Below are positions 40,782-44,932 of a DNA stretch of 64,000 nt, in pieces. The notes beneath the pieces were generated by a model. The model saw only the letters and a list, made by a program, of their open reading frames with translations. It did no database searches and was not told where the DNA came from. The stretch spans positions 372,001 to 436,000 of the forward strand of contig KN832878.1 of assembly GCA_000827325.1 (NCBI GenBank), read 5' to 3'. Made by a program: the position numbers and the translations under genes. The number at the start of each line of letters is the position of its first letter. Within the stretch, counting starts at the first letter, position 1. This DNA is from Oidiodendron maius Zn. Lineage: Eukaryota > Ascomycota > Leotiomycetes > Myxotrichaceae.

Positions 40782-42846
40782 CTATAGCTTCGACCCTCCC
40801 GCCTGCAACTCGACTACTAACACCCCATCCCCAACATCGTCCCCCTCGTCCCCTTCATACACCCAGATCACCCTCCCGCCCCGCGCCGCCCGGATCTCCA
40901 GCTCCATCTTCATCTGCTGCACCACGGCCACTACATCCCCCTTCCGCACCTCGTCCCCCGCGTCTACCAGCAGCTCCATCAGCTTGCCCGCGAACGGGAT
41001 GATGATGTGGTACGGGTTGGCCGGGTCGCCGCGTCTGTGTGTCGCGGCGCTGGTGATGGATCCAAAGGATGCGGTCGTTGACGCAAGGGTCAGGAGGTAA
41101 GAGGATGGCGGGGTAGTGGGAGTTGTGTAGGTTATCTGTGCGGTGAGGGAGGATGGGAATTCGTTGCGTAGAACGCGTGTTACTTGGAGATGGCTCGGGG
41201 TGGAATTCGAGGGTGAAGATTTGCTCTCGGTTCCAGGTGTCAGAGATATGGACCACGCATCGCCTTTTCGGAAGAGGACGTTCGATGCTGCTGATATAGT
41301 TTTTGGCTTTGCATTTGTTAGGTGTCCTGAATTGGCTATGGCGGTCGTAATCTTCTTTCCTGACTTTAGGACAGAGGGTAGTTGTGTTTCCAGCCATTGT
41401 GTATCACAAATCTGGGCCGCGAAGTCCTCGCTGGAAACGATACCCCGCAGGGCATCTAGATTGGTTTTGATGCCTTCGATATACGTGTCTGCCAAAGCCC
41501 GCTTCGCCTTCATGACCACATCCTCCCAGGTTGGGGCAGTGATTATGATCTTAGCTATCAAGCTATCGAAATATGTTCCAATGACAGCGGGATGAGAGGG
41601 AAGAAGATGGGTATCCACTCGCACTCCATTGCCGGCTGGTAATTGGAAGGTTTCAATCTTGCCAACGCTCAAAGACCACTCATTCGAAGCGTCTTCAGCT
41701 GTGACTCGAAGTTGGAGGGACTGTATTGATGGTGGAGTCTCGGGATCTTCTGGCAGGCTCGACAGAGAGAGGGATGACAATGGGCAGCCTTGGGCCAAGA
41801 GGAGTTGTATCTTGACCAGATCAAGTCCCATGGCGATGGATTCTGTAATGACGTGCTCTACCTGGAGACGAGGATTGACCTCCAAAAAGTAGAATTCCGG
41901 TGGTGATGAGCGGACTAGAAACTCAAACGTCCCGAGAGAAGAATAATTGACCTGTTCTAATCAGCATGCCTTAGAGACACGACAAAGTTTATAAGACATA
42001 CCTGCTTCGCCATTCTCAAGGCTGCGTAGATGACCTCCGCTACCAACTTTCTCGAACGTATAGAACTTGGCGCAAACTCAACCACCTTTTGGAACCTTCT
42101 CTGGATACTACACTCCCTCTCCCAAAGATGTGTCACATTTCCCCTCCCATCCCCAATAATTTGCACCTCCACATGCCTATACCCCTCAATGGCAGCCTTT
42201 TCTACAAACGCCTTCCCACTCGGACTCTCCTGCAGCGCTCTCTTCGCCAACGCAGCCAACTCTCCTTCCTCTCTCACAATCCTAATCCCGCGTCCTCCAC
42301 CCCCATCAACGGCTTTAATAATAACAGGGTACCCAACTACCGATGCAAAGGATTGCAACTCTTTTATATCACTAGTCGGATTCTGTAGAGCCGGCAGGAC
42401 GGGAACGCAGCACTCTTCTGCTAACCGCCTGGCTTGCAGCTTATCTGCCGTCCTAGATAAGATCGCAGGCCCAGGTCCGATGACTAGAGCCCCTGCTTCG
42501 TCCCACATGCGTTGAGCAAAGTCAGGTGATTCAGAAAGGAAGCCATAGCCCGGATGAATGGCGTCGATGCCGTGCTTCTTGACCAGGGAAACGAGCCCTG
42601 AGATATTGAGGTATGATGATGGAGAGTCTAATTCTATTGCGTGTAATGAATTGCTGGTGTGAGAGGCGTCATTTTCCGTGTATACGGAATACGTCTCGAT
42701 GTCTAACTCTCTAGCAGTGGATAAGATCCTGGTTGCGATTTCCCCTCTATAAGTATATTAGCATTGCTCGGGTCGTATAGCTAGGATAGATACCTATTTG
42801 CAACAAGAAGCCGCTTTATAGGCCTCTGTGTTGTATATGCCATCAT
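40782..42846 (-). CDS. Biotin-dependent acyl-CoA carboxylase alpha subunit (biotin carboxylase + BCCP), ending in SKL
   Basis: Three exons: 42846-42794, 42746-42002 and 41951-40782; 655 residues. It carboxylates its own biotin with ATP and bicarbonate and passes CO2 to the partner beta subunit encoded divergently next door. Visible parts: biotin-carboxylase N-lobe (RLLVANRGEIATRIL, IHPGYGFLSESPDF), ATP-grasp loop (AVDGGGGRGIRIV), signature LEVNPRLQVEHVITE, C-terminal lobe, a linking region, and a biotinyl domain with the acceptor lysine (about Lys614) in QQMKME rather than the usual AMKM. There is no mitochondrial presequence: the catalytic fold begins almost at the first residue. The protein ends GGSKL, a canonical PTS1, so peroxisomal import is predicted. 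It is smaller and differently placed from mitochondrial MCC/PCC alpha. Substrate unknown. Confidence 0.92.
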
Positions 42847-43088
42847 TACTATAACAAATACAAACCCAGCGGGGAATTACGTAGAATAAGAGTAGAATAA
42901 AAGGAATGAGATGGGATGGCTCCTGTTAGGTGTTTTCGGGTGATACTTTGCCGACCCCACCAAAATCAATCTGGGGAACCGAGGCAATCGTGCGAAGCTC
43001 CAACTGCACTCCAAACATCTCCCTGAAACATTCCACTTTCCACCTAATATAACTTCCTCCTACTTTCCATGTCTGTATATAATTCACC
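42847..43088. promoter_or_regulatory. Bidirectional promoter of the two carboxylase subunits
   Basis: Only 242 bases separate the two start codons, so alpha and beta are probably co-expressed from shared elements. No TATA box is well placed. The beta side ends in a CT-rich leader. Confidence 0.75.
42979..42984 (+). promoter_or_regulatory. CCGAGG, FarA/FarB-type fatty-acid response core
   Basis: CCGAGG (CCTCGG on the other strand) is the core site of the Aspergillus fatty-acid regulators FarA and FarB, found before beta-oxidation and peroxisome genes. One copy lies mid-way between the divergent carboxylase genes. A six-base match can occur by chance, so this is supportive only. Confidence 0.4.
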
Positions 43089-44932
43089 ATGGTCGATGAC
43101 AATGACCCTAAGCCAGCCCCCGCATCTAGCAATCCTACCCAGCGCCTCTCCCAAGTAGCAGGTCACGTCGCCTCCGTCAAGAAACGCGGCTCCAAATCGA
43201 AACCTAAAGACAAATCGAAGCAGGATATTCTCCCAGTAGACTACTCTGACATCTTTACCCAACTATCTACTCTCCGGAGCATAGCTAGCACCCCGGATCC
43301 CAAGAACAAGGGATACGTGCGGCAGAAACAAGCCGGGAAACTCTGGGTGCGTGAGCGTGTAGTAGAGCTCCTCGACCAAGGAAGTTTCCGTGAAGTTGGC
43401 TCCGTTTCCGGGACAGTAGAATGGAAGAAGTTGTCTGATACGAGAGAAGAGCCGGTCTCTTATATACCTTCGAATAATGTTCAAGGATTCGGGACGTTAA
43501 GAGGTAGGAAAGTCGTGTTTACTGCAGATGATTTCTCGATCCGTGCAGGGCATGCCGATGGCGCGCTAATGGAGAAGACTATTTACATGGAGAAGTTAGC
43601 TATTGCTTTGAAATTGCCGATATTAAAACTCGTGGATGGGAGTTCTGGTGGGGGCAGCGTGACGACGATAAAGAAAATGGGATTCTCCTACATCCCACCT
43701 ATGCCATCTTTTGAGTTCGTGGTCAAGCAGCTGAATATGGGCATCCCGAATCTTGGGGCGGTTCTGGGGCCGGCAATCGGGCTGGGCGCGGCGAGAGTCG
43801 TAGCGTGCCATTTTTCAGTTATGGCAGCTGATGTAGGAGCTCTGTTTAATGCGGGACCGAAAGTGGTTGCAGGTATACTTTCCTACAGCATAGTCGCTTA
43901 CACCAGTTACTAAATCTTCATCTAGGCGCGACGTTTGAAGAGGGACTAAGTTTCACGGATCTCGGAGGACCGAGTATGCATTGTACTAATGGGACCATCG
44001 ACAACTTGGCAAGGAATGAGCAAGAGTGCTTCGAACAGTTACGCACAGTATTAAGCTACTTGCCCAATTGGGGAGGCTCTTTGCCTCCCGTCATCGCCTC
44101 CGAAGATCCTGCAGAAAGGCAGTGCGAGGATCTTCGAACAATCATTCCAAGGAAGAAGACACGCATGTACGACGCTCGAAAGATTATTACCACAGTGGTT
44201 GATATTAACAGCTGGTTCGAGATTGGAGCTCTGTGGGGAACAACAGCTATCGTTGGCCTGGCCCGTTTGTGTGGTCGACCTGTGGGAATAGTATCATTAA
44301 ATTGTGAAGTAAACGCGGGAGCTTTGGACGCTGCTGGAAGTCAAAAGATCACTCGACATCTCAAATTCTGCGATATCTTCAATATCCCAGTGGTTCAGTT
44401 CGTCGATGTACCGGGATACGCAATTGGCACTATTGCTGAACGTACAGCGACCATGCGCCATGGCGTGGCTCTGGCCACCACATACTATTCCACCACCATG
44501 CCGGTTTTCAGCGTCGTGACTCGAAGAGTATTTGGTGTTGCCGGCGGAATCATGCTGGATTGTCGAGATCCACGCATGAGAGTTGCCTGGCCAAGTGGGG
44601 ACTGGGGAAGCCTGCCTCTAGAGGGGGGAATTGAGGTTGGCCATGCCGCAGAGTTAAAGGTCTTGCCACCCGGCCAGCGCGAGGAGAGGTATAGAGAGTT
44701 GGAACGAGAGTATCTGCGACTCATGAATCCCGTGAGGACTGCCAATGCATTTGGTGTGGAGGAAATCATTGATCCGGCACTAACGAGACAGGTTGTTGTG
44801 GAATGGGTTAAGCATGTGTAAGTCAAAAGTCCAACATCATTAATCTTGCTGATCTTGGATAGGTATGAGAACCTTCTTCCCGCCAGATTGCTGGATAGAG
44901 CGAATGGAAAGATCCAACCCATGTTCTATTGA
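43089..44932 (+). CDS. Acyl-CoA carboxylase beta subunit (carboxyltransferase) with PTS2-like N-terminus
   Basis: Three exons: 43089-43872, 43926-44817 and 44863-44932; 581 residues. It transfers CO2 from carboxybiotin to an acyl-CoA. The core starts near residue 60 (GKLWVRERVVELLDQGSFRE) and carries both crotonase-like halves: the N-half with DGSSGGGSVTTIKK and PAIGLGAARVVACHFSVM, and the C-half with SLNCEVNAGALDAAGSQKIT, FVDVPGYAIGT, RHGVALATTYYSTTMP and FGVAGGIMLDCRDP. It is of the propionyl/acyl-CoA type rather than close to MCC beta, but the substrate cannot be read by eye. About 45 extra residues precede the core and contain RLSQVAGHV (19-27), which fits the PTS2 pattern R-L-x2-V-A-x-H, with Val at the last place instead of Leu/Ala. 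The short last exon supplies the family's C-terminal helix (YENLLPARLLD). Confidence 0.92.

Follow-up and report, generated by a model that had tools for sequence, protein, structure and literature searches.

Where in the fungal cell does a two-subunit biotin-dependent acyl-CoA carboxylase work if each of its subunits carries a different candidate signal for import into the peroxisome? The question is raised by two divergent genes of Oidiodendron maius Zn, here called alpha and beta, in a stretch of 64,000 nucleotides of contig KN832878.1 (the window, C9:372001-436000; genome, 45.9 Mb). In our gene models, which were built from sequence and homology alone, alpha (biotin carboxylase plus biotinyl domain, 655 aa) occupies 40782..42846 on the minus strand with exons 42846-42794, 42746-42002 and 41951-40782, and beta (carboxyltransferase, 581 aa) occupies 43089..44932 on the plus strand with exons 43089-43872, 43926-44817 and 44863-44932. 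All four modelled introns have GT...AG borders, and the 242-bp divergent intergenic region (42847..43088) is presumably a shared promoter. The original prediction had recognized this divergent pair at 40782..44932, and the outer ends of our models match those coordinates. We infer the peroxisomal localization, assembly, activity and substrate class of the two proteins, and we regard it as very likely that they form a biotin-dependent acyl-CoA carboxylase of two subunits that resides in the peroxisomal matrix and is imported through both peroxisomal targeting signal (PTS) routes.

Catalytic domains and import signals

The biotin carboxylase region of alpha (residues 10-454; 41388..42819, minus strand, two introns inside the span) comprises the Pfam domains Biotin_carb_N (PF00289, 10-113), CPSase_L_D2 (PF02786, 119-326) and Biotin_carb_C (PF02785, 346-454), and is followed by a biotinyl domain (Biotin_lipoyl, PF00364, residues 582-647; 40809..41006, minus strand). 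The predicted biotin site is lysine 614 of an MKM motif (40908..40910, minus strand). The protein search covered fungi, and the best 120 clusters were listed for each of the two queries; all orthologue counts below refer to these clusters, to which the window protein is added in the beta alignment (121 rows). M[KR]M is present in 119 of the 120 alpha clusters. Beta consists mainly of a carboxyltransferase domain (PF01039, 6.2e-76; residues 79-555; 43323..44806, plus strand, one intron inside the span), in which SSGGGSV and residues G465, A467 and G468 are invariant across the 121 rows; these glycine-rich motifs we take to be catalytic. The domains, the MKM lysine and the glycine-rich motifs together identify alpha and beta as a predicted biotin-dependent two-subunit acyl-CoA carboxylase.

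Alpha ends in ...QAGGSKL, with the SKL tripeptide, a type 1 signal (PTS1), at 40785..40793 on the minus strand and the stop codon next to it at 40782-40784. The claim that alpha ends in SKL without room for a mitochondrial presequence is borne out by the gene model and by the Pfam matches, since the catalytic fold begins at residue 10. Among the orthologues, the tails are AKL (35), SKL (31), ARL (23), ERL (13) and NRL (6), with rarer SRL (4), VKL (3), PKL (2), VRL, TRL and TLR (1 each). A canonical [SAC][KRH][LM] tail is thus found in 93 of 120 clusters, 89 of them contributed by AKL, SKL and ARL, and [KR]L in 119; the lone exception (P0226, TLR) is an apparently truncated protein of 541 aa. 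Given the composition of alpha, chance alone would produce a [SAC][KR]L ending about 0.2% of the time, whereas 93 of 120 clusters have one. The last column is L in 119 of 119 rows and the penultimate one holds only K or R, and columns -4 to -14 are variable. According to extracts from a study of Histoplasma, only AKL, SKL and ARL each occur in three or more Pex5-dependent proteins; for PKL, sufficiency as a signal has been demonstrated (PMC13343957). By its conserved C-terminal tripeptide, alpha qualifies as a predicted PTS1 protein of the peroxisomal matrix.

The candidate type 2 signal (PTS2) of beta is RLSQVAGHV (residues 19-27; 43143..43169, plus strand), which is kept in the beta orthologues. 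As given in extracts from one source, the PTS2 consensus is R-[LVIQ]-x-x-[LVIH]-[LSGA]-x-[HQ]-[LA] (PMC4585086); the motif had been predicted to fit at eight of nine places, and it does, the misfit being V in place of L or A at the last position. A pattern used in a study of protists, of which we likewise cite extracts, accepts V or I there (PMC8611851). In the alignment, R19 and Q22 are present in 121 of 121 rows, residue 26 is H in 120 and Q in one, position 20 is L or I, and position 23 is V, I or L; the flanks are variable, as is the basic linker that follows. R-[LI]-x-Q-[VIL]-x-x-[HQ]-[IVLM] accordingly describes all 121 rows, with I in 60, V in 45, L in 14 and M in two at position 9. For motif statistics, residues 2-48 of the 121 rows were compared with shuffles of the same stretch. 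The older two-dipeptide pattern, with V or I permitted last, is matched by 119 of 121 rows (shuffles, 1.3%), and a relaxed pattern that also admits I, V and M at position 9 and is wider at position 6 is matched by all 121 (shuffles, 0.18%); because we widened this pattern with the orthologues already in view, its 121/121 measures conservation, not prediction. Conservation of SKL and of the PTS2-like motif had been named beforehand as a test, and both are conserved in the best 120 clusters per subunit, with the PTS2 deviating at its last position.

The N-terminus of beta also differs from those of its relatives. Seventy-eight residues precede the Pfam domain, and 82 precede GKLxVRER in the window protein versus 45-51 in five measurable bacterial relatives, in whose N-termini the PTS2-like motif was not found (a sixth, L020, was unmeasurable). 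The first 18 residues of beta contain on average 2.5 acidic residues, compared with none in 40 residues of the N-termini of the methylcrotonyl-CoA carboxylase (MCC) of this genome and its neighboring dehydrogenase. Most of the 121 rows have a KKRR-type basic run behind the PTS2 (residues 31-46 in the window protein, 43179-43226), in a linker that is otherwise variable; the run may be a processing site, part of the linker or a nuclear signal.

If both signals operate, Pex5 would import alpha through SKL, and Pex7 would import beta through the PTS2 at its N-terminus. The subunits might enter separately, or one signal of either type might suffice to bring in the assembled complex. Because peroxisomes accept folded cargo, alpha may fold ahead of import, with biotin attached to K614 beforehand, presumably in the cytosol. 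Within the matrix, the biotin carboxylase domain would use ATP and bicarbonate to carboxylate biotin, and beta would then carboxylate an acyl-CoA at carbon 2, yielding malonyl-CoA or a 2-alkylmalonyl-CoA.

The family of beta and its acyl pocket

The best PDB scores of beta are to structures of the acetyl-CoA carboxylase (ACC)/propionyl-CoA carboxylase (PCC) type, the top one by score being 7w5u, an acetyl-CoA carboxylase beta chain. In a 23-row tree (midpoint root, with a long-branch warning from the tool), beta joins six uncharacterized bacterial carboxyltransferases with support of 100/100, apart from both PCC/ACC and MCC, and its nearest bacterial rows are L019, L020 and L023 (92/92). PCC was rejected as the family of beta (separate clade; G or A in place of the specificity aspartate D407 in 121 of 121 rows), as was MCC (beta lies outside the MCC group in the tree and lacks GAGNYxM).

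At the position of D407 in the PCC structure 6ybp, which is G469 in the window protein (44546..44548, plus strand), the residue in the beta family is G in 114 of 121 rows and A in the other seven; Y406 is replaced by G in 121 of 121, and L100, which aligns with A156 in the acyl pocket (43554..43556, plus strand), by A in 121 of 121. The D407 position is I both in the acetyl enzyme 7w5u and in 1vrg, deposited as a PCC beta chain; 7w5u has L at the L100 position. D407 is presumed, from PCC engineering work, to determine acyl choice; a literature search on this point found no paper. As aligned, the small pocket residues suggest an acyl group larger than propionyl, and they would favor such a substrate that is produced or activated in the peroxisome.

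The rest of the genome bears on the product. No match to methylmalonyl-CoA mutase was found in it, although eight of 14 control genomes gave matches, and MmgE/PrpD-family genes are present, so that methylmalonyl-CoA would lack its usual exit. Since, in addition, beta is neither PCC/ACC nor MCC, methylmalonyl-CoA is the least favored of the proposed products. Malonyl-CoA decarboxylase gave no match in this genome or in any control genome, and hence provides no evidence. The proposal of a peroxisomal carboxylase that makes a malonyl- or methylmalonyl-type CoA or carboxylates a branched intermediate is thus supported in its peroxisomal half, through the conserved signals, and is tentative as to the product.

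Objections and alternative readings

Several observations weigh against a peroxisomal enzyme imported by two routes and acting on larger acyl groups. For alpha, the tripeptide is non-canonical in 27 of the 120 clusters. Parastagonospora nodorum accounts for all 13 ERL rows, and Alternaria by name for four of the six with NRL; since orthologue rows are related in this way, they do not represent independent events. The biotin motif stands 42-45 residues from the end of alpha in 95 of 119 rows (range 42-68), so the length of the tail varies little. For beta, the strict PTS2 consensus is met by only nine of 121 rows, the window not among them (shuffles, 0.05%), because position 9 is mostly I or V. 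The basic run behind the PTS2 could act as a nuclear signal. In the pocket, I at the D407 position of 1vrg means that the D407 rule is not clean. Finally, the endogenous biotin proteins noted for Histoplasma, in extracts from the study, are pyruvate carboxylase and MCC, with no third (PMC13343957); in that fungus the enzyme is absent, silent or undetected.

Of the alternatives, the one that survives best, although we consider it unlikely, is a peroxisomal acetyl-CoA carboxylase that converts the acetyl-CoA from beta-oxidation into malonyl-CoA within the organelle. Acetyl-CoA is abundant in the peroxisome, so substrate would be plentiful, and the top-scoring solved relative of beta is an enzyme of this kind; nevertheless, 7w5u has I and L at the D407 and L100 positions, where the focal family has G/A and A, and a large multi-domain ACC gene already exists on contig C1. 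Less probable still is a dual-localized enzyme with one pool in the peroxisome and another in the cytosol or nucleus, the conserved basic run serving as a nuclear signal or holding some of the enzyme outside the peroxisome. Dual targeting is common, and the run is indeed kept in the linker after the PTS2, with K or R at columns 31, 32, 33 and 40 in 97, 109, 114 and 105 of 121 rows, but, according to extracts from PMC4585086, a PTS2 signal normally includes an unstructured linker downstream of the motif. A mitochondrial propionyl-CoA carboxylase with fortuitous signals is highly improbable: the database names "propionyl-CoA carboxylase beta chain, mitochondrial" and "pyruvate carboxylase", the ACC/PCC type of the top PDB matches and the basic N-terminal extension of beta speak for it, but against it stand the conserved PTS1 and PTS2-like motif, the alpha fold from residue 10, the acidic start of beta, the change of 6ybp D407 to G/A in 121 of 121 rows, the position of beta outside the PCC/ACC group, and a genome with MmgE/PrpD-family genes and no methylmalonyl-CoA mutase match.

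To our knowledge, peroxisomes are known for acyl-CoA breakdown, not carboxylation. If the two-route peroxisomal carboxylase is real, ATP, bicarbonate and a subunit that already bears its biotin would have to be present in the matrix, and a malonyl-type CoA pool would exist beside beta-oxidation. Such a pool might help to degrade blocked chains or feed polyketide or lipid synthesis. The complex would also be a rare one in which each subunit follows a different import route, and the database label of a mitochondrial propionyl-CoA carboxylase would need correcting; entries titled "propionyl-CoA carboxylase beta, mitochondrial" and the like are probably misnamed. What would be new is the compartment, the double import route and the unplaced carboxyltransferase clade, whereas the class of chemistry is already known. 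In the literature searched, represented mostly by titles and the beginnings of abstracts, thin for subscription journals and in part covered by the first entries of longer lists (30 of 968 in one case), we recognized no report of a peroxisomal two-subunit acyl-CoA carboxylase, and the word carboxylase is absent from the main text of PMC3566003 and PMC3764329.

Distribution, relatives and known systems

The closest named relatives of the window proteins among the clusters listed are from helotialean fungi, for example Phialocephala subalpina. When 39 beta and 35 alpha rows were selected by eye, 35 beta/alpha pairs lay on the same contig as judged by its length, a number that is not a rate given this manner of selection; gene numbers are consecutive in five pairs (Oculimacula, Botrytis tulipae, Mollisiaceae sp., Monilinia fructicola and Neocucurbitaria). 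Paired orthologues span at least Leotiomycetes and Dothideomycetes. We advance more tentatively, and with somewhat more doubt than confidence, the broader proposal that these two classes possess a fourth, peroxisomal carboxylase class with two import routes, which would make 2-alkylmalonyl-CoA from branched or medium-chain acyl-CoA and maintain its own malonyl-type CoA pool.

The gene neighborhood offers no clue to the substrate, as no obvious pathway cluster was seen among 25 further ORFs (open reading frames) selected from the window. Of these, 17 matched Pfam families (among them Vps54, MCM, kinase, Xrn1, WD40, RanBP zinc finger, alpha/beta hydrolase, NmrA, APC8/TPR, polyprenyl synthetase, AMP-binding, nuclear pore, Hid1 and SPC22) and eight matched none. 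The AMP-binding ORF (57657-58976), about 13 kb from the carboxylase pair, could be an acyl-CoA ligase.

A second carboxylase pair, of the MCC/geranyl-CoA carboxylase type, lies on the same contig about 1.3 Mb from the window (L017, C9:1728500-1738400). This locus also encodes an acyl-CoA dehydrogenase ending in SKL and an HMG-CoA-lyase/enoyl-CoA-hydratase fusion ending in SRL, endings that were read in this genome only; its beta' ends in ARL, and its alpha' is without a PTS1. Among the best 120 clusters to beta' (P0241-P0360), which carry names such as Penicillium (Eurotiomycetes), Fusarium and Lasiodiplodia, 116 end in AR[ILM] (63 ARI, 33 ARM and 20 ARL) and 53 match [SAC][KRH][LM]. Ordinary MCC beta chains end in a similar FRM, so that the AR[ILM] ending alone is weak evidence; it could be a PTS1 or an inherited MCC-beta C-terminus. 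We predict that this locus encodes a peroxisomal copy of a pathway of the leucine or acyclic-terpene type, in addition to the MCC set on C1 that looks mitochondrial.

The nearest non-fungal relatives found are uncharacterized bacterial "carboxyl transferase domain-containing proteins" of Tistrella, Cupriavidus, Diaphorobacter, Variovorax and Rhodococcus (L019-L024, L037-L116). Four annotated plasmid relatives adjoin CoA-transferases, tripartite tricarboxylate transporter (TTT) binding proteins, a thiolase/OB-fold pair or AMP-binding proteins. The remaining two plasmid loci are unannotated, but at one of them, L023, an AMP-binding-like ORF was read by eye alongside. On the Cupriavidus sp. P-10 plasmid pMTS3 (L022, 8673-18882), the carboxyltransferase gene lies a few genes from the biotin synthesis genes bioA, bioF, bioD and bioB. 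An alpha match (tblastn) lies within the flanking sequence at eight of 80 bacterial genome loci (L037-L116), of which only 41 comprise at least 19 kb and which were ordered by similarity to the Tistrella protein rather than to fungal beta. The bacterial gene context appears to indicate no substrate. A scan of genome contigs with the fungal alignment gave no match.

These bacterial proteins resemble beta in sequence: six plasmid loci are 34-44% identical to it, and L019, L020 and L023 share with it D-G-[ST]-[SG]-G-G-G-S-V and G-V-A-[GA]-[GA]. They differ in that their N-termini are shorter and that the biotin carboxylase is on a separate gene or not nearby. With the PCC/ACC enzymes (6ybp, 7w5u, 1vrg) the O. 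maius pair shares its architecture, an alpha subunit with biotin carboxylase and biotinyl domains and a beta subunit that is a single-chain carboxyltransferase; unlike 6ybp, the focal beta has D407 replaced by G/A, Y406 by G and L100 by A, and it is distinguished by its own clade and its peroxisomal signals.

Two systems in the same genome serve as controls. The thiolase comparison concerns the signal only: at one of 10 thiolase loci (L029), an ORF just ahead of the match starts MALPGERLSTVLGHL, which we take to be the first thiolase exon with a standard PTS2. The peroxisomal 3-ketoacyl-CoA thiolase, an enzyme unrelated to beta, would thus, like beta, carry its signal, RLSTVLGHL, near the presumed N-terminus. 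MCC, like the focal pair, consists of two subunits encoded by adjacent genes (C1:3584494-3587874). At this locus (L018), MCC alpha, MCC beta and the adjoining acyl-CoA-dehydrogenase-like ORF, the last recognized by eye and taken as isovaleryl-CoA dehydrogenase, all have basic, acid-free, mitochondrial-looking N-termini. Unlike the focal pair, MCC has these N-termini, a GAGNYGM motif whose Y occupies the D407 position, and an alpha tail, ...LVLFEQTEG, that is without a PTS1.

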